DNA of 64,000 nt from Microbacterium sp. W4I4 (GTDB lineage Bacteria; Actinomycetota; Actinomycetes; Actinomycetales; Microbacteriaceae): assembly GCF_030816235.1 (NCBI RefSeq), contig NZ_JAUSXT010000001.1, positions 930,001-994,000 of the forward strand, in the 5' to 3' direction. Position numbers and translations under genes: made by a program. Positions 29,833 through 41,220 of the stretch are shown one piece after another; position 1 is the stretch's first letter; each line of letters begins with the position of its first letter. Under the pieces are notes generated by a model, which ran no database searches, had not been told where the DNA came from, and saw only the letters and a list, made by a program, of their open reading frames with translations.

Positions 29833-30507
29833 TCAGGTCGCGGCGGCCCGCGATGCCACCGGTCGCAGACTCACGGCGTGCGCAAGGCGCTCCTGACGAC
29901 TGCTCTCGACATGCGCCCGTGCCAACGCGCTCGCCCGATCGCCGTCGCGATCGCGAACGGCCTCGTAAAGCGCGACGTGCTCGTCAGCGATGTGCTCCAG
30001 GTCGTCGTGCTGGACCAGCGACCAGCGCAGTCGACTGCGAATGCTGCCCATCAGGTCACCGAGCAGACGATTGTCGGCCAGCTGCACCGCGACCTCGTGG
30101 AAGTCGGCCGCCGCGCGGCGCGAGGTCACGCTGTCCTCGAGGCGTGCGCTCGCCTGCTCGGCATCCAGGACGTCCTTGAGCCGCTGGAGATCCTCGCGCC
30201 GATGACGCTCCGCGGCAAGTCGGAAGGCCATCGGTTCGAGGACCTCCCTGACCTCGTCGAGATCGGCGAGGTCGGCTGCGGTGAACTCGCGGACGATCGC
30301 CCAGGTACGCGGGCGCAGCTCGACGAGGCCTTCGCCGTCGAGGAGCTTCAGCGCGTCGCGGACCGGCACACGGCTGACGCCGAACTCGGTGGCGAGATCG
30401 CGCTCGGTGAGCTTGCTGCCGGGCGGGCGCTCGCCGTCGAGGATCGAGTCGCGCAGCCATGTGGCGACCCGACTCGATTCCAGTTCGCGTTCTTCTGCTC
30501 CGGTCAC
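29833..30507 (-). CDS. GntR/FCD-family transcriptional regulator
   Basis: This 224-residue regulator has an N-terminal winged helix (LTERDLATEFGVSRVPVRDALKLLDGEGLVEL) and an all-helical FCD ligand domain with the metal-site histidines spread through its C-terminal two thirds. FCD regulators sense small carboxylates or catabolic intermediates. The gene is 34 bases downstream of carbamate kinase on the same strand. Three TGGTATNCCA operators of the FCD-GntR type lie in the divergent promoter region of the cluster, so it is the likely repressor. The GTG start at 30507 has a poor ribosome site; GAAGAT six bases upstream may be a leaderless box. Confidence 0.85.
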   Translation of the reverse strand: MTGAEERELESSRVATWLRDSILDGERPPGSKLTERDLATEFGVSRVPVRDALKLLDGEGLVELRPRTWAIVREFTAADLADLDEVREVLEPMAFRLAAERHRREDLQRLKDVLDAEQASARLEDSVTSRRAAADFHEVAVQLADNRLLGDLMGSIRSRLRWSLVQHDDLEHIADEHVALYEAVRDRDGDRASALARAHVESSRQERLAHAVSLRPVASRAAAT

Positions 30508-30541
30508 AGGATCATCTTCGCATCTCGGCCGTGCTCGCCGG

Positions 30542-31540
30542 TCACGCCTTCTTGGCGAGCGCCTTCTCCGCCGGTGCCTTCTCGGCCGGAGCCTTCTCGA
30601 CCGGAGCCTTCTCCACCCAGCGGATGCCCTCCGCCAGCGTCGGCACGATCTCGGTGCCGATCTTGCGGGCGAGCAGGTCGTCGAGCCGGTCCAGCGGTCC
30701 GATGAGCGTGCGCCCTCCTGCGCGTGCCACGCGGATCGCCGCGTCGATCTTGGGCTGCATGGACCCCTCGGCGAACTTCATCGCGGCGACGGCGTCCGCC
30801 GAGGCCGTGTGGATGTCGCGCTGCTCGGGCGTGCCCCAGTTCTCGCTGACGTAGTCGCCGTCGGTGAGCATGATCAGCGTGTCGGCGCCGATGTCAGCGG
30901 CGAGCGCTGCGGAGGCGAGGTCCTTGTCGACGACGGCCTGGACGCCGATGTGGCGGCCCTGCGAGTCGGCGCGCACGGGCACGCCGCCGCCGCCGACGCA
31001 GACTGCGAGGCTGCCCGCTTCGAGCAGGCGGCGGATCAGCGGCGCCTGGACGATGGCGACGGGGTTCGGCGAGGGCACGACGCGGCGGAACGCCTCGCCA
31101 TCCTTCGCGATGGTCCATCGGTACTCGGCGGCGGCCTCGGCTGCGTCGTGCGCGGAGTACTGGGGCCCGATGAGCTTGGTGGGGCGGTCGAAGGCCGGGT
31201 CGGACTCGTCGACGACCGTGGTGGTGATGATCCCGGCCACCTCGCGCTCGCCGCCCAGGGCGTTCGAGAGCTCCTGCTGCACGACGTAGCCGATCATTCC
31301 CTGCGTCTCGGCACCGAGGATGTCGAGGGGGTAGGCCGCGACGTCCTGGTAGGCGAGGTTCTGCAGTGCGAGCAGGCCGACCTGCGGCCCGTTGCCGTGC
31401 GTGATGACCATCTCGTTGTCGCGTGCGAGCGATGCCAGCGCGATACAGGCCGAGCGGACGTTGCTCCGCAGGTACTCGGCGGTCATCGGCTCGCCACGAC
31501 GTGCGAGGGCGTTGCCTCCCAGTGCCACTACGACGCGCAT
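30542..31540 (-). CDS. arcC: Carbamate kinase with repetitive C-terminal tail
   Basis: This 332-residue amino-acid-kinase-fold enzyme (ALGGNALARRGEPMTAEYLRSNV; ITHGNGPQVGLLALQN; LMLTDGDYVSENWG; FAEGSMQPKIDAA) interconverts carbamoyl phosphate plus ADP with carbamate plus ATP. The kinase core ends near residue 305; the last 24 residues are an added tail of VEKAP/AEKAP repeats encoded by 15-base direct repeats at about 30545-30615. In this cluster it should run toward ATP synthesis, using carbamoyl phosphate from the FdrA-type carbamoyltransferase, as AllK does in E. coli. It is divergent from that operon and upstream of the GntR gene. Confidence 0.92.
   Translation of the reverse strand: MRVVVALGGNALARRGEPMTAEYLRSNVRSACIALASLARDNEMVITHGNGPQVGLLALQNLAYQDVAAYPLDILGAETQGMIGYVVQQELSNALGGEREVAGIITTTVVDESDPAFDRPTKLIGPQYSAHDAAEAAAEYRWTIAKDGEAFRRVVPSPNPVAIVQAPLIRRLLEAGSLAVCVGGGGVPVRADSQGRHIGVQAVVDKDLASAALAADIGADTLIMLTDGDYVSENWGTPEQRDIHTASADAVAAMKFAEGSMQPKIDAAIRVARAGGRTLIGPLDRLDDLLARKIGTEIVPTLAEGIRWVEKAPVEKAPAEKAPAEKALAKKA
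30545..30615 (-). repeat. 15-base tandem repeats encoding EKAP tail
   Basis: About four to five copies of GAGAAGGCNCCGGNN in tandem encode the VEKAP/AEKAP tail of carbamate kinase. Confidence 0.8.
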
Positions 31541-31565
31541 GTTCTCTCCCTTGTTGAAACCGTTC

Positions 31566-31615
31566 TGGTATGCCAGATTAGTAAATGGTATTCCATTTCT
31601 TTAAATGGTATACCT
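31566..31615. promoter_or_regulatory. Three phased GntR operators between carbamate kinase and the FdrA operon
   Basis: TGGTATGCCA (31566-31575), TGGTATTCCA (31586-31595) and TGGTATACCT (31606-31615) start exactly 20 bases apart, two helical turns. The consensus TGGTATACCA is a palindrome of the kind bound by FCD-type GntR proteins. The sites cover AT-rich candidate -10 elements for both divergent transcripts. Confidence 0.8.
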
Positions 31616-31633
31616 AGATGCAACACATTCACA

Positions 31634-31672
31634 GCATCCGCATCTCGGCCACCACACCGGGTGCGCGGATGC
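31634..31672 (+). other. Leader hairpin upstream of the DUF2877 gene
   Basis: GCATCCGC (31634-31641) pairs with GCGGATGC (31665-31672) just before the ribosome site. It may affect translation of the first operon gene. Confidence 0.35.
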
Positions 31673-31687
31673 CACGGAGAGAAGACG

Positions 31688-32632
31688 ATGACCCCCGTCG
31701 CACCCCTCGTCGCGTTTCGCGCGACCACCTGGGATGCTGCGCTTGAGGAGACGCTCTCACGCGCCGCTGAGCACAGGCGGGTGTCCGGCGTTCCCGCGAT
31801 CGTGCATTCGGTCCACCAGCGCGTCCTCAACATCCTGGTCGACGGTGCACTGATCGCCGTCGCGCATGACGACCTCGACGACGCCCCGTCGACGATCCGC
31901 ACCGAAGTCTCGAACTGGGCCGCTCGGGGCGTCGCGCAGGGCGCCCCGGTGCACATCGACGCCACGGGCATCCGGATCCCCGCGGCCGACGGCACGACCA
32001 TCGCGATCGACCTCTCCCCCGACGCGGCATGGACGCCGGCACCGGTCGACCTCTCCGCACTCACCGTCGACGACATCGACGCAGCGCTGCACATCCTCTC
32101 CGACTTCACGGCCCCCCAGGCGATGACCGACTTCGGCCGCGCCGCGGCCGCGCCGATCGCCGAGCGGCTCGACGCCCTCCGCCATGCGCTGCTGGCCGGT
32201 CCGCCCGCCCCCATCACCGCGGCGAGCGAACGGCTGATCGGACTCGGCGAGGGACTCACCCCGACCGGTGACGACATCCTCACCGGATTCGCCTTCCTCG
32301 CCGCCCAGCCGGGCATGCATGGCGCGGGACGCCTCACCGCGATCGAGGACGCCGTGCGCGGGGCTGACGATCTGACCGGCCTGCTCAGCCTCACCACCAT
32401 GCGCCACGCGCTGCGGGGCCGCGGGCGGCAGTGCCTGCACGATCTCGCGGCGGCCGTCGAAGCCGGCGACGCGCAGTGGCTGCGCACCGCGGCAGCGCTC
32501 ATCCAGAACATCGGGCACACCTCGGGCGCCGACATCCTCACCGGTGTGCGCATCGCCCTCGAAATCGAGTGCGCGCTGCGCGCGGCTCCGGACACGACCA
32601 CCCCCCATCTCATCGACGAGAAGGAAAACTGA
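31688..32632 (+). CDS. DUF2877 protein, AllH/YlbF-like
   Basis: This 314-residue protein of the DUF2877 family (E. coli YlbF, renamed AllH) has the two family hallmarks GLGEGLTPTGDDILTGFAFL (about 178-197) and NIGHTSGADILTGV near the C-terminus. In E. coli AllF (FdrA), AllG (YlbE) and AllH (YlbF) together act as oxamate carbamoyltransferase. The ATG at 31688 follows GGAGAGAAG. It is first in the operon, and its TGA overlaps the next ATG (TGATG). The AllH role is inferred from family and from FdrA and DUF1116 in the same operon. Confidence 0.82.
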   Translation: MTPVAPLVAFRATTWDAALEETLSRAAEHRRVSGVPAIVHSVHQRVLNILVDGALIAVAHDDLDDAPSTIRTEVSNWAARGVAQGAPVHIDATGIRIPAADGTTIAIDLSPDAAWTPAPVDLSALTVDDIDAALHILSDFTAPQAMTDFGRAAAAPIAERLDALRHALLAGPPAPITAASERLIGLGEGLTPTGDDILTGFAFLAAQPGMHGAGRLTAIEDAVRGADDLTGLLSLTTMRHALRGRGRQCLHDLAAAVEAGDAQWLRTAAALIQNIGHTSGADILTGVRIALEIECALRAAPDTTTPHLIDEKEN

Positions 32633-33924
32633 TGACCACGACGACCGTCGCCGAAACCACCGCCGCCTCCGAGTTCGAGCACGAACCCGTGCCGTTGAGT
32701 CACCGCAAGTCGCTGTTCAGCGTCTCGGCGGTGTGGTTCGGGTTCCCGATGATCATCACCAACGCCATCCCTGGCGGCATGATGGTCGCCTCTCTCGGCT
32801 TCTGGCGCGGCGTCGCAGCGATCCTCGTCGCCAACGTGCTGATGATGGTCTACGTCAGCCTGCTCAGCTGGCGCGCCGGCCGCACCGGCAAGAGCTTCGC
32901 TCTGCAGGCCATCGAGACCTTCGGCACTGCGGGCTACATCATCGCCTCCGGCTTCCTGTCCACGGTGGTCATCGGCTGGTTCGCGTTCAACACAGGCAAC
33001 ACCGGCGCGACCCTGCACCTGGCGTTCGGCTGGAACGAAACTCTCATGGCCGCACTCGCCGGTCTGGTGTTCATCGGCGTCACGTATCTGGGCATCCGCG
33101 CCCTGTCGGTGCTCGGCGCCATAGCCGCGCCGCTGTTCGTGGTGGCCGTCGTCATCGCCATCGTGATCGCCTCCACCAAATACGACTTCGCTGCGATCTG
33201 GTCGTTCCAGGGCAGCACCGACCCGGCCGTCACCGCCATCTCCTTCGGCGCGGCCGTGACCGCCATCATGGCGACCTTCCTCGACTCCGGCACTATGACC
33301 GCCGACTTCACACGGTGGTCGAAGAACGGCCGTGAAGCGGTGCTCGCAACCCTGACCGCCTTCCCGATCGCCAGCGTCGTCTCCCAGGTCTCGGGTGGGA
33401 TCTTCGTCGCCGCCGGCGCGCTGATCGTCGACGGCAACTTCTCCACGATCCTCACCAGCACCGGCTCACCGTGGCTGAACGTGTTCCTGCTGATCTTCGT
33501 CGCGATCAACCTGGGCTCCGTCGCCACGCACTGCCTGTACAACGGCGCGCTGGGCTGGTCGCATATCGCGAAGTCGACCATGCGCGTCTTCACGCTCGTG
33601 CTCGGCGTCATCGGCGTCATCGCCGCCATGCTCGGCGTCTGGTACTACTTCGCCCCCTGGCTTGCGCTGCTCGGGGTGATCGTGCCGCCGATGGGCGCCG
33701 TGCTCATCGTCGACCAGATCTTCATGGCTCGCCGCAACGAGGGCCGGGCGGAGCGGAGGTTCCGCAGCAGCGCCTTCATCGCCTGGGCGATCGGCGCCGC
33801 GTTCGCGCTGCTCTCCCACAACCTGGCCCCGGAGTTCTCGGACGCCGTCGTCGGCCTCGTCGTCGGCGGCCTGGCGTACTGGGCGATCGAAAACCTCTCA
33901 CGAAAGAAGGAGCTCACCAGATGA
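32632..33924 (+). CDS. CodB-like NCS1 permease
   Basis: This 430-residue protein has about twelve transmembrane segments and resembles cytosine permease CodB and related NCS1 carriers (VPLSHRKSLFSVSAVWFGFPM, IPGGMMVASLGFW, FNTGNTGATLHLAFG). It should import a nucleobase-like compound with H+ or Na+. It is translationally coupled to the DUF2877 gene before it (TGATG) and to the ankyrin gene after it (ATGA), so its expression is tied to the carbamoyltransferase genes. It is one of three different nucleobase-type carriers in this cluster; exact substrate unknown. Confidence 0.85.
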   Translation: MTTTTVAETTAASEFEHEPVPLSHRKSLFSVSAVWFGFPMIITNAIPGGMMVASLGFWRGVAAILVANVLMMVYVSLLSWRAGRTGKSFALQAIETFGTAGYIIASGFLSTVVIGWFAFNTGNTGATLHLAFGWNETLMAALAGLVFIGVTYLGIRALSVLGAIAAPLFVVAVVIAIVIASTKYDFAAIWSFQGSTDPAVTAISFGAAVTAIMATFLDSGTMTADFTRWSKNGREAVLATLTAFPIASVVSQVSGGIFVAAGALIVDGNFSTILTSTGSPWLNVFLLIFVAINLGSVATHCLYNGALGWSHIAKSTMRVFTLVLGVIGVIAAMLGVWYYFAPWLALLGVIVPPMGAVLIVDQIFMARRNEGRAERRFRSSAFIAWAIGAAFALLSHNLAPEFSDAVVGLVVGGLAYWAIENLSRKKELTR

Positions 33925-34526
33925 CAGACAACGGCGCGGACCAGCGCTATCTGGACGCGGCAGCGGCCGGCGACCTGGAGGCCGTCAAGGCCGCCCTGGC
34001 CGACGGCGCGGACAAGGACGCCGTCGATCACGAGGAGGCGAGCGCCATCCTGCTCGCGACCCGCGGCCGGTACCTGGACGTCGTGCGGGCGCTGATCGCG
34101 GAGGGCGTCGACATCGACGCCCAGGATCAGACCTGCTTCAACCCCTTCATCCATGGCTGCATCTTCGACGACCTCGAGATCGTGCAGCTCATGGTCGAGG
34201 CCGGCACCGATCTCAAGCGACTCACCCGCATGGGCGGCAACGGTCTGACCCCGGCTGCGGAGAAGGGGCACCTCGAGGTGGTGCGCTACCTGCTCGAGAA
34301 CACCCGCATCAACGTCAATCTGACCAACAACCTGGGCTGGACCGCCCTGATCGAGACGATCATCCTCGGCGACGGCGGACCGGTGCGCCAGCAGACCGTC
34401 GAACTGCTGCTCGCGCACGGCGCGAAGCCCGGCATGACCGACGAGTGGGGCGTCTCCCCCGTCGAGCTGGCTCGCAAGCGCGGCTTCGACGAGATCGTCG
34501 CCATCCTCGAGCGCCACCAGGCCTGA
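33921..34526 (+). CDS. Ankyrin-repeat protein inside the catabolic operon
   Basis: This 201-residue protein is made almost entirely of about five ankyrin repeats (YLDAAAAGDLEAVKAALADG; ATRGRYLDVVRALIAEGVDI; EKGHLEVVRYLLEN; TVELLLAHGA; ARKRGFDEIVAILERH). No signal peptide or membrane segment is visible, so it is cytosolic and probably a protein-binding scaffold. Its ATG overlaps the permease stop and fdrA follows after 22 bases. A binding partner such as FdrA/DUF1116 or the permease tail is plausible but not shown. Confidence 0.85.
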   Translation: MTDNGADQRYLDAAAAGDLEAVKAALADGADKDAVDHEEASAILLATRGRYLDVVRALIAEGVDIDAQDQTCFNPFIHGCIFDDLEIVQLMVEAGTDLKRLTRMGGNGLTPAAEKGHLEVVRYLLENTRINVNLTNNLGWTALIETIILGDGGPVRQQTVELLLAHGAKPGMTDEWGVSPVELARKRGFDEIVAILERHQA

Positions 34527-34548
34527 CACCTCTCCCGAAAGGATCACG

Positions 34549-36099
34549 ATGACCAGACACATCGAAATCAGGAAGAACACCTACGTCGACTCCGTCTCGC
34601 TCATGTCCATGAGCACGAAGGCGAACGCCGTCGAAGGCGTCACCCAGGCGCTGCTGGGCATGGCGACCCCGATGAACAAGGAGGTGCTCCTCAACGTCGG
34701 CGTCTCCGACCCCGCGGTCGACGCGGCCAAGCCGAGCGATCTGATGATCGTCATCGACGCGTCCGACGACACCATCGAGGCGGCGATCCAGGCGGTCGAC
34801 GACATCCTCGCCCGCAAGAACAAGGGATCGGCGGATGCCGCCGAGGTGCGCTACCGCACGCTCGACGGCGCCTTCACCGAGGTGACGGATGCCAACCTCG
34901 TGCTCATCTCGGTCAACGGCGCGTTCGCGGCCCGTGAGGCGCGCAAGGCCCTCAACGCCGGAAAGCACGTCATGATCTTCTCGGACAACGTGTCGTTGGA
35001 GGACGAGCTCGCACTGAAGACGCTGGCACATGACAAGGGTCTGCTCGTGATGGGCCCGGACTGCGGCACCGCCATCATCAACGGAGTCGGACTCGCGTTC
35101 GCGAACGCGGTCCGCCGTGGGAGCATCGGCATCGTCGGCGCCTCCGGCACCGGCAGCCAGGAGCTCTCCGTGCGCATCCACGACTTCGGCGGCGGCGTGT
35201 CGCAGCTGCTCGGCACGGGCGGTCGCGACCTTTCCGCCGAGATCGGCGGCATCTCCATGATCGACGGCATCCGCGCACTCGACGCCGACCCCGAGACCTC
35301 GGTCATCGTCGTCGTGTCCAAGCCCCCGGCAGAAGAGGTCGCCGACAAGGTCCTCGCCGTCGCGGGCGCCGCCTCCAAGCCGGTGATCGTCAACTTCCTC
35401 GGCTCGAAGCGCACCGAGTCCGGCCACGCGAACGTGACGATGACTTCCGGGACCAAGCCCGCAGCCCTCGCCGCGGTGCTGGCCACAGGCGTCGACGAGT
35501 CGACGCTGGACCTGCACGCGCTGAACATCCCGCTGATCGAGGAGGTGCGCGCCAAGCTCGCCCCCGAACAGAAGTACGTGCGCGGTCTGTTCTGCGGCGG
35601 CACGCTGTGCGACGAGGCGATGTTCGCCGCACTCGACAAGTACGAGAACGTGTACTCCAACATCCAGAAGGACCCGGCGTACACGATCGGCGCGACCGAG
35701 CCGTCTCGCGAGCACACCTTCCTCGACATGGGCGACGACGACTTCACCAACGGGCGTCCGCACCCCATGATCGACCCGAGCATGCGCCTTCAGCGCCTCG
35801 CCCAGGAGGCCGAGGACCCCGAGGTGGGCGTCATCGCGATGGACTTCATCGTGGGCTTCGGCTCGCATGAGGACCCCGTCGGCGTGACCATCCCCGCCAT
35901 CACCGCAGCCAAGGAGAAGGCCGCCGCGCGCGGTCAGCACCTGGAGATCCTCGGCTACGTGCTCGGCACCGACCTGGACACCCCGGCCGTGACCGAGCAG
36001 GTCGCCATGCTCGAGGCCGCCGGTGTGACCATCTCCTCCTCCTCCACCAACCTCGGGCTGCTGGCCCGCGAATTCGTCGCGAAGGGTGACAACCGATGA
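34549..36099 (+). CDS. fdrA: FdrA/AllF, CoA-ligase-like subunit of carbamoyltransferase
   Basis: This 516-residue protein of the FdrA family, built on a succinyl-CoA-synthetase-like scaffold, has an N-terminal domain (IEIRKNTYVDSVSLMSMST), a Rossmann-type module (GSIGIVGASGTGSQEL, about 191-206, followed by GGGVSQLLGTGGRDLS) and a C-terminal ligase-like half. SGHAN at 291-295 lies where SCS alpha subunits have their phosphohistidine segment; equivalence is untested. In E. coli FdrA (AllF) with AllG and AllH converts oxalurate plus phosphate to oxamate plus carbamoyl phosphate. GAAAGGATCACG precedes the ATG; the stop overlaps the DUF1116 ATG. Confidence 0.9.
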   Translation: MTRHIEIRKNTYVDSVSLMSMSTKANAVEGVTQALLGMATPMNKEVLLNVGVSDPAVDAAKPSDLMIVIDASDDTIEAAIQAVDDILARKNKGSADAAEVRYRTLDGAFTEVTDANLVLISVNGAFAAREARKALNAGKHVMIFSDNVSLEDELALKTLAHDKGLLVMGPDCGTAIINGVGLAFANAVRRGSIGIVGASGTGSQELSVRIHDFGGGVSQLLGTGGRDLSAEIGGISMIDGIRALDADPETSVIVVVSKPPAEEVADKVLAVAGAASKPVIVNFLGSKRTESGHANVTMTSGTKPAALAAVLATGVDESTLDLHALNIPLIEEVRAKLAPEQKYVRGLFCGGTLCDEAMFAALDKYENVYSNIQKDPAYTIGATEPSREHTFLDMGDDDFTNGRPHPMIDPSMRLQRLAQEAEDPEVGVIAMDFIVGFGSHEDPVGVTIPAITAAKEKAAARGQHLEILGYVLGTDLDTPAVTEQVAMLEAAGVTISSSSTNLGLLAREFVAKGDNR

Positions 36100-37520
36100 G
36101 TGTCAACGATCTTTTCCAGACCGATCTGAGGCCGGTGAACCTGGGCCTCGACATGTTCGCCGACGACATGAAGGCGCAGGGCGTCGATCCTGTGCTGATG
36201 GACTGGACCCCGCCGGGTGGTGGCGATCCCGAGGTCATCGCCGCGCTCAGCCGCCTCGAGGATCCCGCCGTGGCGGAGCGCATCGACGCGGCCAACCAGG
36301 TCGCGCTCGATCGCATCCTGACCGCTCAGCCGTTCCTGGAGGGCTTCGGCCAGGCGATCGACGTCGTCCCCGGGATGACGGCGAAGACGATCCTGCACGC
36401 CGGTCCCCCGATCGAGTTCCCCCGCATGTCCGGTCCGATGAAGGGCGCCGTCACCGGTGCGCTGGTCTTCGAAGGCCTCGCGAAGGACGTCGACGAGGCG
36501 TTCGAACTCGCGGCATCCGGCGAGATCACCTTCTCGCCGTGCCACGAGCACCAGTCGGTCGGCTCCATGGCCGGTGTGACCAGTGCCAGCATGTGGATGC
36601 ATCAGGTGACCAACCGCACCCACGGCAACACCGCGTACACCAACCTGTCCGAGCAGCTCTCGAAGATCCTGCGCTTCGGAGCCAACGACCAGTCGGTCAT
36701 CGACCGCCTGAACTGGATGCGCGACGTGTTCGGACCTGTGCTCTCCGGCGCCATGGCGCTGAACACCGACGGACTCGACCTGCGGCTCATGCTGTCGCAG
36801 GCGCTGCACATGGGAGACGAGGCGCACAACCGCAACGTCGCCGGCACCACGCTGCTCATCCAGGCGCTCGCGCCGTACATCCTCGAGACCGACTTCACCA
36901 CGAAGGAGAAGCGCGAGGTGTTCGACTTCGTCGCCTCCTCGGACTACTTCTCCGGCCCGACCTGGATGGTCGCGGCTAAGGCGGCGATGGATGCGGCCAA
37001 CGGAGTCGAGGACTCCACGATCGTCACCACCATGGCCCGCAACGGCGTCGATTTCGGCATCCGCGTCTCCGGCACCGGCTCGCAGTGGTTCACCGGTCCC
37101 GCCCAGCAGGTCATCGGTCCCATGTTCGCCGGGTACACCCCCGAGGACTCGGGTCTGGACATGGGCGACTCGGCCATCACCGAGACGTTCGGCATCGGCG
37201 GCTTCGCGATGGCGGCAGCGCCCGCGATCGTCGCCCTCGTAGGCGGCACGGTCGATGACGCGATGGGCTACTCGCGGACGATGAACGCGATCACCACGGG
37301 CAACAACCCGAACATCACCATCCCCGCCCTGGACTTCATGGGCGTGCCCAGCGGCATCGACGTGCGCAAGGTGATGGAGACCGGCATCCTGCCGATCATC
37401 AACACCGCGATCGCGCACAAGGATCCCGGAATCGGCATGATCGGCGCCGGCATCACGCATCCGCCCGTCGAGGCGTTCCAGCAGGCGCTGCGCGCCCTTT
37501 CCGACGGGATCGCAGCATGA
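36096..37520 (+). CDS. DUF1116 protein, AllG/YlbE-like
   Basis: This 474-residue DUF1116 protein (E. coli YlbE/AllG family) starts NDLFQTDLRPVNLGLDMFADD. Conserved regions include GMTAKTILHAGPPIEFPRMSG, FSPCHEHQSVGSMAGV and, toward the C-terminus, VSGTGSQWFTGPAQ. It is the second subunit expected for the oxamate-type carbamoyltransferase. ATGA overlaps at both ends couple it to fdrA and to the NCS2 permease, which implies stoichiometric synthesis. The substrate is inferred from E. coli. Confidence 0.87.
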   Translation: MSVNDLFQTDLRPVNLGLDMFADDMKAQGVDPVLMDWTPPGGGDPEVIAALSRLEDPAVAERIDAANQVALDRILTAQPFLEGFGQAIDVVPGMTAKTILHAGPPIEFPRMSGPMKGAVTGALVFEGLAKDVDEAFELAASGEITFSPCHEHQSVGSMAGVTSASMWMHQVTNRTHGNTAYTNLSEQLSKILRFGANDQSVIDRLNWMRDVFGPVLSGAMALNTDGLDLRLMLSQALHMGDEAHNRNVAGTTLLIQALAPYILETDFTTKEKREVFDFVASSDYFSGPTWMVAAKAAMDAANGVEDSTIVTTMARNGVDFGIRVSGTGSQWFTGPAQQVIGPMFAGYTPEDSGLDMGDSAITETFGIGGFAMAAAPAIVALVGGTVDDAMGYSRTMNAITTGNNPNITIPALDFMGVPSGIDVRKVMETGILPIINTAIAHKDPGIGMIGAGITHPPVEAFQQALRALSDGIAA

Positions 37521-39103
37521 CCGCGGTCGCGCCCGCAGCGGCATCGACACAATTGCACTGGTGGAGGCGCGGTGACATCGCGGCCTTCTTCGCGCTGTTC
37601 ACCAACAACCTCACCAACCTCATCACCTTCACGGCGCTGCTGACGATGGCAGGGCTGCCCATCTCGATCGTCGTCGGGCGGATCGCCCCGGCGTTCGGCC
37701 TGGCGATCCTGATCACGTCATCGATGTACGTCTGGTTCGCCCGGCGTCTGGCGGCGAAGGAGGGCCGCGGTGATGTCGTGGCGCTCCCCTCGGGTCCGAG
37801 TGCGCCCTCGATCTTCACTGTCACGTTCCTCGTGATCCTGCCGGTGTACTCGTCGACGCAGAATGCCGAACTGGCCATCGCCATTGCACTGGTCTGGGGC
37901 TTCCTCGAGGGACTGATCCTGTTCGTCGGATCTTTCTTCGGCGATCTGCTGCGCCGTGCCGTGCCGCGCTCGGTGCTGCTGGCCTGCCTTGCCGGCCTCG
38001 GACTGCTGCTGCTGGCGATGAACCCGATGCTGCAGGCGTTCCAGTTCCCCGTGGTCGCCTTCATCGTTCTGGTGATCGTGTTCATGAACTGGTTCGGCCG
38101 CTCGCCGTTCCTGGGCAAGGTCCCCACCGGTCTGCTGCTGCTGATCGTGGGTACTGCGTCCGCATGGGCGTTCGGACTGCAGAGCCCCGAGGCTGTGCAG
38201 ACGGCACTGACGAATGCCGGCTTCCACCCGCCGCAGGTGGCCATCGGCAGCTTCGTCGAGGGTCTTGCGCACGCAGGTCCGTACCTCGCATCCGCCGTGC
38301 CGCTCGCGCTCGCGAACTACGTCTTCGACCTGGAGAACATCGAGGCCGCCGAGGCCGCCGGCGACCACTACAAGGCGCGCCCGGTGATGCTTGTCAACGG
38401 CGGCGCGACGATGATCGGCGCGCTGCTCGGCAACCCCTACCCCGTCACCGTGTACATCGGCCACACCGCGTACAAGGAGATGGGTGCGGGGATCGGCTAC
38501 ACCCTCGCCAACGGCATCACGATGTTCGTCGTCGGACTGCTCGGCCTGAGCTCGCTGCTGCTCTCGATCGTCCCGATGGCGGCGATCGCCCCGATCCTCA
38601 TCTACATCGGCGTCGTCACCGCCAACCAGGCGGTGCGCGAGACGCCGAAGGTCGAGATCCCGGTGATCTTCATCGCCCTGTTCCCCTGGATCGCCAACTG
38701 GGCGAACAGTCTGGTGGGCAACGTACTGAAGTCCGTGGGCACGAACGCCGGCGAGGTCGGAGCGGACGCACTGAACGCCGCCGGCACGTACTATTCCGGA
38801 ATCGCCAACCTCGGCAACGGCGCCCCGCTGTCGTCGCTGCTGTGGGGGATGATCGCGATCTTCGCGATCCGGAACAAGCCCATCAACGGCATCATCGTCA
38901 GCGTCCTTGCGGCGATCGTCGCCTTCTTCGGCATCATCCACGCTCCGGTTCCCGCCGTCGGCGGGGAGACGCAGACGATGTTCATGGTCGCCTACCTGAT
39001 GGTGGCCGCGCTGTTCCTGGCGAAGTGGATCCAGGACCGGGTGACGAAGGAGACTGTTTCCTTCGCCGCCCATGAAGAACTCACGATGTCGGCGCTCCGC
39101 TGA
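37517..39103 (+). CDS. NCS2/AzgA-type nucleobase permease
   Basis: This 528-residue membrane protein with about 12-14 segments has NCS2-type features: FFALFTNNLTNLITFTALL in the first helix region, ALPSGPSAPSIFTVTFL resembling the substrate-site helix, and a long hydrophobic core with GNPYPVTVYIGHTAYKEMGAG. AzgA-like members take up adenine, guanine or hypoxanthine. Its ATG overlaps the DUF1116 stop, so it is the last gene of the coupled block; a hairpin follows its end. Specificity is undetermined. Confidence 0.8.
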   Translation: MTAVAPAAASTQLHWWRRGDIAAFFALFTNNLTNLITFTALLTMAGLPISIVVGRIAPAFGLAILITSSMYVWFARRLAAKEGRGDVVALPSGPSAPSIFTVTFLVILPVYSSTQNAELAIAIALVWGFLEGLILFVGSFFGDLLRRAVPRSVLLACLAGLGLLLLAMNPMLQAFQFPVVAFIVLVIVFMNWFGRSPFLGKVPTGLLLLIVGTASAWAFGLQSPEAVQTALTNAGFHPPQVAIGSFVEGLAHAGPYLASAVPLALANYVFDLENIEAAEAAGDHYKARPVMLVNGGATMIGALLGNPYPVTVYIGHTAYKEMGAGIGYTLANGITMFVVGLLGLSSLLLSIVPMAAIAPILIYIGVVTANQAVRETPKVEIPVIFIALFPWIANWANSLVGNVLKSVGTNAGEVGADALNAAGTYYSGIANLGNGAPLSSLLWGMIAIFAIRNKPINGIIVSVLAAIVAFFGIIHAPVPAVGGETQTMFMVAYLMVAALFLAKWIQDRVTKETVSFAAHEELTMSALR

Positions 39104-39126
39104 GCGTCGGCGACTGAGACACCACC

Positions 39127-39164
39127 GTCGCGCCCGGGGAGACGCACCGCTCCCCGGGCGCGAC
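39127..39164 (+). terminator. Hairpin between NCS2 and NCS1 permease genes
   Basis: A perfect 14-bp stem (39127-39140 with 39151-39164) with a 10-base loop. It may end or reduce transcription before the last two genes of the cluster. Confidence 0.7.
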
Positions 39165-39172
39165 GTATACCC
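39163..39172. promoter_or_regulatory. Weak fourth operator-like site and -10 region
   Basis: ACGTATACCC contains the GTATACC core (7 of 10 positions of TGGTATACCA read on the other strand) and could double as a -10 element about 30 bases before the NCS1 gene. Confidence 0.35.
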
Positions 39173-39203
39173 TCAATCTCGGTGCTGAGAGAAAGCGGAT
39201 GCC

Positions 39204-40697
39204 ATGTCCGAGACCACCGTCAGAGATCTGATCGATCCCGGCGAGGAAGCCGTCGACAGGTACCGCGCTCGCGGCTACGCCGACGACGTCCTGCCGATCC
39301 GCCCGAAGGATCGCACCTGGAAGGTCCCCCAGTTCGTGACTGTGTGGATGGGGCCGATCCACAACATCCTGTCCTACTTCACCGTGATGACGTTCTTCGC
39401 ACTGGGCTTGAACGCCTGGCAGGTCGTCGGCGCGATCATGACGGCCGCGGCGATCGTGTCCATCGGATACGTGCTCAACGGCCAGGCCGCCGCGAAGTAC
39501 GGCGTTCCCTTCGCCATGCAGCTGCGTGAGGCCTTCGGCCACAAGGGCGCCCTGGTGCCCACCTGGATCCGCGGCATCATCGCCGGCTTCGTGTTCTTCG
39601 GCATCACCAGCGTCTCCTCGGCGCAGGCCTTCGACGTCGTCTTCGAGACGATCTTCCCCGGGTTCATGGACATCGGCGGCGGCGCCGACATCCTGGGCCT
39701 GCCGATTCCGACCGCCATCTCGTATCTCGTCACCTGGGTGCTCACCGTCGGACTGTTCCTGGGTGGACAGGCGTTCCTCGGCAGGTTCAGCACCTGGGCG
39801 AACCCGGCCGTCTTCATCCTCGTGGTGATCGCCGTCGTCATCGCCGTGACCAATGCCGGCGGCTTCGGCGAGGTCATGTCCGTGCGTCCCGTCGACAGCA
39901 TCGTGACCCCGCTGGTGTTCATCACCTGCGTGTCGATGCTGGTGTCCAACTGGGCCGGTCCCATCGTCAACACCGGCGATTACACGCGCAACGCCAAGGC
40001 GATGAAGGACCCGGCGGTCGGCTTCCCGATCGGCGTGATCGGCTCCTACATCCTGTTCGCGCTCGTCACGGTCTCGTTCGTCGCGTCGCTGCAGGTCGCC
40101 ACCGGCGGCGACTTCGACATCAACCGCCCGGGCGTGTTCGTCGAGGCGATCAACTCGATCGGCAACCCGTTCGTGGTGGTGCTGCTCATCATCGCGATGA
40201 ACGTCGGCGCCGTCGCCTTCGTGGTGTTCGGCAACATGCTGCCGGCAGGTCTCCAGCTCACGGCGCAGCTGCCGAAGCTGTTCACGGTGAAGCGCGGCGC
40301 GATCCTCGCGGCCCTCATCGGCACGTTCATCCTGCCCTGGCAGTTCGTCGAGAACACCGACATGCTGTTCCTGTTCTACTCGTTCATCGGCTCCCTGTTC
40401 GGCCCCATCGTCGGCATCATGCTCGCCTCCTACTTCGTCGAGCGCGGTCGCACATTGGATCTGGACGGCATCTATGCCGACTACCGCGGCGGTGAGAAGG
40501 GATCACTGCCGGCATACAACTGGCGGGCACTGGGCGTGATGTTCCTGAGCTTCGTGATCACCATGGCCGGACGCATCCCCGGCATCTCCTCGGTCGACTT
40601 CCTCGCCCAGGTGAACAACCTCGCGTTCTTCTCGGGGCTGATCATCGGGTTCGTCGGCTACACGCTCACCATCCTCGCCAACCGCCGTCGTGCCTGA
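39204..40697 (+). CDS. NCS1 permease, hydantoin/allantoin/purine-cytosine type
   Basis: This 497-residue NCS1 carrier with about 12 transmembrane segments has family segments VTVWMGPIHNILSYFTVMTFFALGLN (helix 1), GKxG-type PFAMQLREAFGHKGALVP (helix 3) and SNWAGPIVNTGDYTRNAKAM (loop 6-7). Relatives include Mhp1 (hydantoin), PucI (allantoin) and FurA-type uracil carriers. It is the second NCS1 protein of the cluster but not closely similar to the CodB-like one. It follows a hairpin and a possible separate promoter, with GAGAAAGCGG before the ATG, and probably forms a pair with the deaminase gene. Confidence 0.85.
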   Translation: MSETTVRDLIDPGEEAVDRYRARGYADDVLPIRPKDRTWKVPQFVTVWMGPIHNILSYFTVMTFFALGLNAWQVVGAIMTAAAIVSIGYVLNGQAAAKYGVPFAMQLREAFGHKGALVPTWIRGIIAGFVFFGITSVSSAQAFDVVFETIFPGFMDIGGGADILGLPIPTAISYLVTWVLTVGLFLGGQAFLGRFSTWANPAVFILVVIAVVIAVTNAGGFGEVMSVRPVDSIVTPLVFITCVSMLVSNWAGPIVNTGDYTRNAKAMKDPAVGFPIGVIGSYILFALVTVSFVASLQVATGGDFDINRPGVFVEAINSIGNPFVVVLLIIAMNVGAVAFVVFGNMLPAGLQLTAQLPKLFTVKRGAILAALIGTFILPWQFVENTDMLFLFYSFIGSLFGPIVGIMLASYFVERGRTLDLDGIYADYRGGEKGSLPAYNWRALGVMFLSFVITMAGRIPGISSVDFLAQVNNLAFFSGLIIGFVGYTLTILANRRRA

Positions 40698-40731
40698 CGG
40701 CTCCCATCGCAGCAGTGAAACGGAGAACACC

Positions 40732-41220
40732 ATGAGTCATCCCACCCCTTCCCCGCAGACCCTGGACTCGTACTTCGCCCCGGCGGTCGAGGCCACCATC
40801 GCGGGGATGCGCGCCAGCAACGGCGGCCCGTTCGGCGCGACCCTGGTCGACAGCGACGGCAAGATCGTCGTCGCCGTCGGAAACACGGTCGTACGCGAAA
40901 CGGATCCGTCCGGCCACGCGGAGATGGTTGCCGTTCGCGAGGCGTGCAAGAGGCTGAACACGCTCGATCTGTCGACGTACACCATGTATGCGACCTGCGA
41001 ACCGTGCCCGATGTGCGTCGGCGTGATGATGCTGGCCGGCATCAAGACCTGCTACTACGCATCCACGCACGACGACGCGGCTGCGAACGACTTCAGCGTC
41101 CAGCACATCATCGACTACCTCGATGGCAGTGACAAGTCTGCGCTCGACATGGTGCACCTCGACGAGGGCCGCGACGACTGCGCGAGCATCTGGACGGAGT
41201 ACCAGGCGCTGAAGGGCTGA
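40732..41220 (+). CDS. Cytidine-deaminase-fold nucleobase deaminase
   Basis: This 162-residue zinc hydrolase has H62-A-E64 (GHAEMVAVREA) and P91-C92-x2-C95 (CEPCPMCVGVMM), the full set of zinc ligands and the proton-shuttling Glu of the CDA fold. Size and the GGPFGATLVDSDGKIV start match the guanine deaminase/nucleoside deaminase group rather than tRNA-specific TadA. It would deaminate an imported base to an oxo-ring product, which hydrolases elsewhere could open to a carbamoylated compound for FdrA. It lies 34 bases after the NCS1 permease; a terminator ends the cluster. Confidence 0.85.
   Translation: MSHPTPSPQTLDSYFAPAVEATIAGMRASNGGPFGATLVDSDGKIVVAVGNTVVRETDPSGHAEMVAVREACKRLNTLDLSTYTMYATCEPCPMCVGVMMLAGIKTCYYASTHDDAAANDFSVQHIIDYLDGSDKSALDMVHLDEGRDDCASIWTEYQALKG

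Follow-up and report, generated by a model that had tools for sequence, protein, structure and literature searches.

A YahDEFG-type FdrA-AllG-AllH cluster with nucleobase-type carriers and a carbamate kinase in Microbacterium

Gene content and predicted operators

The window, a 64,000-nucleotide stretch of the single-contig, 3.84-Mb genome of Microbacterium sp. W4I4, carries a cluster of ten genes (positions 29833-41220) in which FdrA, AllG and AllH, homologues of the three subunits of Escherichia coli oxamic transcarbamylase, are found together with a carbamate kinase, three permeases, a deaminase and an ankyrin-repeat protein. A preliminary description of this DNA had proposed these ten genes, and all of them were confirmed in both position and orientation.

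Two of the genes lie on the minus strand: a GntR/FCD-family transcriptional regulator (29833..30507; PF00392 and PF07729), which adjoins the cluster in many relatives, and the carbamate kinase (30542..31540; NF009008, 408.6 bits, cut-off 361). Carbamate kinase converts carbamoyl phosphate and ADP to ATP, NH3 and CO2. The plus-strand operon begins with an AllH/DUF2877 subunit (31688..32632, 314 amino acids; PF11392, 75.8 bits, cut-off 25), a CodB-type NCS1 permease (32632..33924; PF02133; 190.8 bits with the cytosine permease model, under its cut-off of 326) and an ankyrin-repeat protein of the YahD type (33921..34526, 201 amino acids; Ank_2). These are followed by FdrA of the YahF type (34549..36099, 516 amino acids; NF004760, 485 bits, cut-off 433) and AllG/DUF1116 of the YahG type (36096..37520, 474 amino acids; PF06545, 296.5 bits, cut-off 27); DUF2877 and DUF1116 are now named AllH (PF11392) and AllG (PF06545) in Pfam. 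An NCS2-like permease from a branch without a Pfam match (37517, or 37553, to 39103), an allantoin-permease-like NCS1 permease (39204..40697; PF02133, 222.6 bits; best NCBIfam model allantoin permease, 366.7 bits, under its cut-off of 620) and a CDA-fold deaminase (40732..41220, 162 amino acids from the ATG at 40732; PF00383), all on the plus strand, complete the cluster.

Neighbouring genes of the plus-strand operon overlap at four of its seven junctions, by 1 base between AllH and the CodB-type permease and by 4 bases each between the CodB-type permease and the ankyrin gene, between FdrA and AllG, and between AllG and the NCS2-like permease (start 37517). The start of AllH is most likely 31688, because a ribosome-binding site precedes it in most of the aligned Microbacterium relatives; AlphaFold gave a predicted local distance difference test score (pLDDT) of 94 for a 283-residue form of AllH beginning at 31781. 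The cluster is flanked by an aminotransferase gene and secA, and identical flanks are found in many named Microbacterium loci. The closest relatives of FdrA and AllG come from Cryobacterium and Microbacterium, and because the block recurs in tens of genomes from three phyla (Actinomycetota, Bacillota and Pseudomonadota), we regard the cluster as more than a chance assembly.

The intergenic region between the kinase and AllH holds three operator-like sites of the TGGTATNCCA type (31566..31615), located at 31566, 31586 and 31606 and so spaced exactly 20 bp. With one mismatch allowed, at least one such site was present in every kinase-AllH intergenic region compared (25/25), and 16 of the 25 had two or three sites at 20 bp, nine of these having three. 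The conserved array and its spacing fit control by the GntR/FCD protein, which may bind these putative operators and is the likely controller of the cluster. The exact form ATGGTATNCCA occurs twice in the window's own genome, and no adjoining purine or ureide gene was recognised by eye at the second site (~3,109,580). The tandem form at 20 bp, with two mismatches allowed, gave 16 strand-wise matches in this genome versus 5 in a reversed control, and the only perfect tandem GGTATACC pairs were the window's and one at 1,285,930 (L135 7931-7958). Downstream of the latter lies an operon for a peptide-type ABC transporter; its proteins share 22-52% identity with ABC genes located close to other FdrA clusters. 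An operator-based regulon search of the same genome found no distant ring-opening gene.

Kinship with YahDEFG and conservation across related loci

The preliminary description had likened the cluster to E. coli AllFGH. The likeness holds for the set of three subunits and a kinase, but FdrA and AllG proved to be nearest to YahF and YahG. The window's FdrA shares 60% identity with YahF of E. coli K-12 versus 38.5% with AllF (fdrA), and its AllG shares 70% with YahG versus 47% with YlbE; the ankyrin protein is 50.5% identical to YahD over 184 residues, and AllH is 25% identical to YahE. Only the kinase departs from this yah affinity, being nearer to YbcF/AllK (49.5%) than to YahI (38%). In a quick tree made for FdrA only (91 rows), the window's protein and YahF fell inside one 81-row clade that spans Actinobacteria, Bacilli, Enterobacterales, Pasteurellaceae and Betaproteobacteria. 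Outside it were AllF (L004, L103), plasmid and second-copy Avibacterium proteins (L087, L099, L102, L047, L050) and three further loci (L088, L100, L101), the deep order of the tree being unsure because of long branches. By sequence kinship, the cluster is of the YahDEFG type and not of the E. coli allFGH (oxalurate/allantoin) type.

The E. coli yahDEFG(H)IJ cluster shares with the window the combination of ankyrin protein, AllH, FdrA and AllG, with a kinase and a deaminase-type enzyme linked. It differs not only in the kinase (YahI) but also in having a LysR regulator, whereas the window has GntR/FCD, and the amidohydrolase YahJ, which the window lacks, the CDA-fold deaminase standing in its place. 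E. coli AllFGH with AllK (described in the accessible part of PMC11326118) resembles the window in its three homologous subunits, its carbamate kinase and its invariant AllG residues: 43 columns are invariant among 23 AllG proteins, the characterised E. coli AllG included. It differs in that its FdrA belongs to a separate clade and its operon has no ankyrin gene, and the window is without allantoin genes. E. coli AllF (L004 16681-19617) also differs in carrying at its C-terminus a 42-residue stretch that matches AllG 14-55, a shifted gene boundary.

AllH is far more divergent than AllG, with a mean column identity of 25% (48 rows) versus 64% (23 rows). The three subunits showed only AllH, CoA_binding/Ligase_CoA and AllG domains and no OTCase or ATCase Pfam domains. 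A phosphohistidine mechanism for FdrA, considered by analogy with its relative, the alpha subunit of succinyl-CoA synthetase, was rejected: at the column that we take to hold the active-site phosphohistidine of that enzyme, none of 28 FdrA rows has His. In one genome of the genus, an open frame of 1000 codons suggested a fusion of FdrA and AllG; this was likewise discarded, as the two genes lie in different frames.

We compared the window with 80 related loci. Patterns derived from its AllG had retrieved 203 relatives, of which these were the best 80, a choice that biases the sample to the window's type. At most 10 kb of DNA on each side was available per locus, short contigs such as L019 were counted, and genes lying no more than seven genes away from AllG were scored by BLAST against proteins of the window and of E. 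coli. In the resulting 81 loci, AllH was present in 68, carbamate kinase in 69 and the ankyrin gene in 70. The ankyrin gene, present in the preliminary description with its wider recurrence overlooked, is thus a conserved cluster member; it was missing in 11 loci (L013, L019, L022, L025, L043, L045, L046, L048, L055, L080 and L083). At least one of the three permease types was found in 58 loci (NCS1 in 17, NCS2-like in 39, CodB-type in 17). A CDA-fold deaminase was found in 19 loci and a YahJ/AtzC-type amidohydrolase in 31, the two occurring together only in L033. Relatives of AllB (allantoinase), AllD (ureidoglycolate dehydrogenase) and AtzD occurred in none of the 81, and family matches revealed no ring opener inside the cluster itself.

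Among the carriers, the NCS2-like protein bears the weakest label of the cluster. The label derives from the names of its relatives ("xanthine permease" or "adenine/guanine/hypoxanthine permease") and from a single 60%-identical relative with PF00860 among the 120 matches listed. For the protein itself, sequence searches gave no PDB chain at E 1 and, even with the threshold relaxed to E 10, no Pfam family; a small-scale comparison of profiles with three proteins annotated as NCS2 did not support the label. The deaminase has its best PDB relatives among guanosine, deoxycytidine and guanine deaminases, which score much alike (E 1e-25 to 1e-27).

The NCS1 permease and the CDA-fold deaminase co-occur. 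NCS1 was present in 16 of the 19 loci with this deaminase, the three exceptions being Bacilli (L033, L034, L040), and the single NCS1 locus without a deaminase (L019) is a short contig. On a tree of 77 rows (L019, L047, L050 and L063 left out), each gene changes at least 10 times, and about 4.5 of five well-supported independent pairs change the same way, while no pair changes in opposite directions (sign test, median p 0.0625, range 0.0625-0.125). This co-change suggests that NCS1 and the deaminase behave as an optional side module. Deamination itself looks like an optional side entry, since 20 of the 81 loci (L019 included) bear one of the permeases with neither deaminase type nearby.

A possible route from ureides to ATP

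At a probability of about 0.5, we propose that this operon serves to use a small nucleobase-like ureide as a source of nitrogen and energy, by way of carbamoyl phosphate from FdrA-AllG-AllH and ATP from the kinase. The NCS2-like and CodB-type permeases would bring in an oxo compound, while the NCS1 permease would bring in its amino analogue, which the CDA-fold deaminase would convert to the oxo compound and NH3. FdrA-AllG-AllH, as a paralogue of oxamic transcarbamylase, would phosphorolyse an acyl-urea acting as carbamoyl donor, and the ankyrin protein would be a probable fourth subunit or assembly factor. The kinase would then turn the carbamoyl phosphate into ATP, NH3 and CO2, and the GntR/FCD protein may govern both arms through the three predicted operators. 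As the donor, our best guess is oxalurate or a similar acyl-urea formed non-enzymatically, for instance from parabanate. According to the accessible parts of the respective papers, E. coli AllFGH converts oxalurate to carbamoyl phosphate and oxamate (PMC11326118), and parabanic acid is hydrolysed to oxaluric acid at neutral pH (PMC5703782). In outline, our results support what the preliminary description had suggested, a catabolic FdrA-type carbamoyltransferase and carbamate kinase served by nucleobase-type carriers and a deaminase.

Several points weigh against this proposal. The argument for parabanate as the source of the donor comes from chemistry only, and a search of the open-licence literature, mostly at title level, found no functional study or enzyme assay of YahDEFG-type proteins; in the accessible part of PMC7033237, YahD appears merely as a PSI-BLAST match. 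The window has three permeases, and the K-12 yah cluster has none of these types. The kinase was lacking from 12 of the 81 loci and AllH from 13 within the span scored, to which short contigs and divergent AllH contribute, and six of the ankyrin-less loci (L045, L046, L048, L055, L080 and L083) are actinobacterial and belong to one sub-clade, L083 having an ankyrin gene farther off. An AllC-family ureide hydrolase (31-34%) lies near five Bacilli loci, so that a further hydrolase may take part, and three amidohydrolases without a specific name leave room for a ring opener elsewhere in the genome. The test for NCS1-deaminase coupling also falls short of 0.05.

The alternative that survives best, although we consider it unlikely, is that the donor is a biuret- or s-triazine-type compound (biuret, allophanate or carboxybiuret) and not oxalurate. 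Other FdrA groups adjoin cyanuric acid amidohydrolase, biuret-hydrolase-like cysteine hydrolases and allophanate hydrolase, atzC adjoins an AllG-kinase remnant, and the best PDB relative of YahJ is named N-isopropylammelide isopropylaminohydrolase. The window's FdrA falls in a different clade, however, AtzD-type relatives are absent from the 81 loci, and an isochorismatase-type family (f41) occurs in just five of the 80 (L047, L049, L050, L054 and L069). The window's own genome gave no AtzD or barbiturase match, a weak negative because the search control gave no match anywhere, and its three isochorismatase-family matches show at most weak likeness to biuret-hydrolase-type queries. In nitrifiers, the accessible part of PMC12625717 places allFGHK beside biuret and triuret genes, reads the set as oxalurate degradation and reports no atzD there.

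That the cluster is simply AllFGH-AllK for allantoin catabolism, the known allantoin/oxalurate route, seems to us quite improbable, even though it has the same three subunits and kinase and its NCS1 protein scores best with the allantoin permease model. FdrA and AllG fall with YahF and YahG, and AllB and AllD relatives are absent from the 81 loci. The window's own genome has no uricase, no allantoinase over cut-off and no xanthine dehydrogenase (the search control for the last being positive in 5/14), and its nine M20 matches reach just 25% identity (205 residues, E 0.001) to an AllC-like query. Among 149 sampled genomes of the genus to which the window belongs, 12 carry AllG, 43 uricase and 82 an allantoinase over cut-off. 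Uricase and allantoinase are both present in eight of the genomes with AllG, and the other four have neither (the window's own, G030, G092 and G107; G030 is 77% complete). With kinship uncorrected, uricase was commoner with AllG (8/12 versus 35/137, Fisher p 0.005), a point in favour of the allantoin route, whereas allantoinase was not clearly so (8/12 versus 74/137, p 0.55). The uricase enrichment suggests some tie to purine breakdown; the window's own genome is nevertheless without uricase. The doubt already voiced in the preliminary description that allantoin is the substrate is supported by the lack of AllB and AllD relatives and by the four AllG genomes with neither enzyme. Real and functionally coherent, the cluster is probably not the known allantoin route; it represents an uncharacterised version of a type of system that was itself characterised only recently.

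The preliminary description had also held that an imported base is deaminated and then opened by enzymes encoded elsewhere; in the version considered here, a canonical base (cytosine or guanine) is deaminated by the CDA-fold enzyme and opened by unlinked enzymes, its ureido product feeding FdrA. Guanosine and guanine deaminases being nearest to the deaminase, the CodB-type and purine-permease-like carriers, and the room left by the three amidohydrolases all speak for this version, to which we give only a small chance. The seven Amidohydro_1 matches in the window's own genome are a dihydroorotase, an imidazolonepropionase, a NagA (just under cut-off), a weak Xaa-Pro-dipeptidase-like protein, a D-aminoacylase-like protein and two Amidohydro_3 proteins. 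The last two reach no NCBIfam cut-off, and the D-aminoacylase-like protein is likewise without a specific name. Dihydroorotase was the only named cyclic amidase among the seven (ATP-dependent hydantoinases were not searched for), so that no named opener for uracil, xanthine or hydantoins was found beyond it. This result, the lack of xanthine dehydrogenase and, with its silent control, the lack of an AtzD/barbiturase match leave the claim of ring opening elsewhere without backing, and many otherwise similar clusters have no deaminase.

Finally, a complex that runs in reverse or has another role, such as the transfer of a carbamoyl group to an acceptor or the removal of carbamoyl phosphate, is very unlikely, since the conserved linkage to carbamate kinase (69/81) and importers (58/81) points to catabolism, although the kinetics of the E. 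coli enzyme in the accessible part of PMC11326118 were measured from carbamoyl phosphate and oxamate.

Other FdrA groups and s-triazine genes

Plasmids of Citrobacter, Klebsiella, Raoultella and others carry blocks of cyanuric acid amidohydrolase, NCS2, AllH, FdrA, AllG and carbamate kinase that share with the window FdrA, AllG, AllH, the kinase and an NCS2-family permease. Their FdrA is only 41% identical to the window's and belongs to another group, and they differ further in their AtzD-type ring opener, in the nearby allophanate hydrolase and in having no annotated ankyrin gene. Each of 47 plasmid records, mostly from Enterobacterales, covers at least 80% of this block, with allophanate hydrolase nearby in both L087 (3740-11381) and L102 (10300-17941); the ring opener of L087 scored 582 bits against cyanuric acid amidohydrolase versus 327 against barbiturase. 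A Klebsiella plasmid (L100 6297-16687) carries atzF (allophanate hydrolase), FdrA, AllG, a ring-opening amidohydrolase, carbamate kinase and a cytosine-deaminase/AtzC-like amidohydrolase. Biuret-hydrolase-like cysteine hydrolases (271-319 bits, under the cut-off of 370) lie beside FdrA-AllG in L050 (14185-17790), L099 (7373-14582) and L101 (5295-15898), all with FdrA outside the window's clade; L101, from Peptoclostridium, also has a PucR-type regulator and two annotated xanthine permeases.

On pTC1 (L085 9983-12779), a truncated AllG and a carbamate kinase (47% identical to YahI) lie directly upstream of atzC, and pADP-1 (L138 4758-6986) retains the kinase-atzC pair behind ISPps1; at least 80% of that stretch is found in 7 plasmid records. 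The AllG/kinase segment next to atzC is a remnant of an FdrA/AllG-type cluster. The nearest protein to AtzC by BLAST, among 14 compared, was the CodA-like enzyme of L033 (33%). We do not claim orthology of AtzC and YahJ, as none of the 12 inner forks of their tree was supported. The same literature search found no paper joining atzC with carbamate kinase or FdrA.

The FdrA clusters linked to AtzD, atzF and biuret hydrolase make a multi-substrate family plausible. We suggest tentatively, as a possibility more doubtful than not, that FdrA-AllG-AllH complexes are widespread ATP-yielding ureide phosphorylases whose donors differ by clade, with oxalurate for AllF and probably cyanurate-derived ureides for the AtzD-linked group. 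The window would then stand for a clade whose enzyme has four subunits, the ankyrin protein among them, and acts on oxidised or amino-substituted fragments of bases (such as parabanate/oxalurate) without a ring opener, and atzC would have been captured from such a cluster. Oxamic transcarbamylase was tied to genes only in 2024 and for one substrate, and a second, ankyrin-linked clade is now set apart from it. Because this clade includes yahDEFG of E. coli K-12, what that long-unknown operon does can now be tested directly with a small set of acyl-ureas. If there are indeed several donors, substrate-level ATP formation from ureides would be a general means of living on fragments of nucleobases and s-triazines, and the origin of the atrazine gene atzC could be explained as well.

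FdrA clusters of other composition were also seen. Those of Leucobacter (L018, L021, L032) have AllH on the opposite strand, an amino acid permease and ABC transporter genes, and they carry a chlorohydrolase/8-oxoguanine-deaminase-like amidohydrolase (one representative scanned, L021). In Methylocystis (L088 8953-13379), a distant AllG lies in a nitrilase/MSMEG_0572-type cluster, together with an FdrA-like protein annotated as an oxidoreductase.

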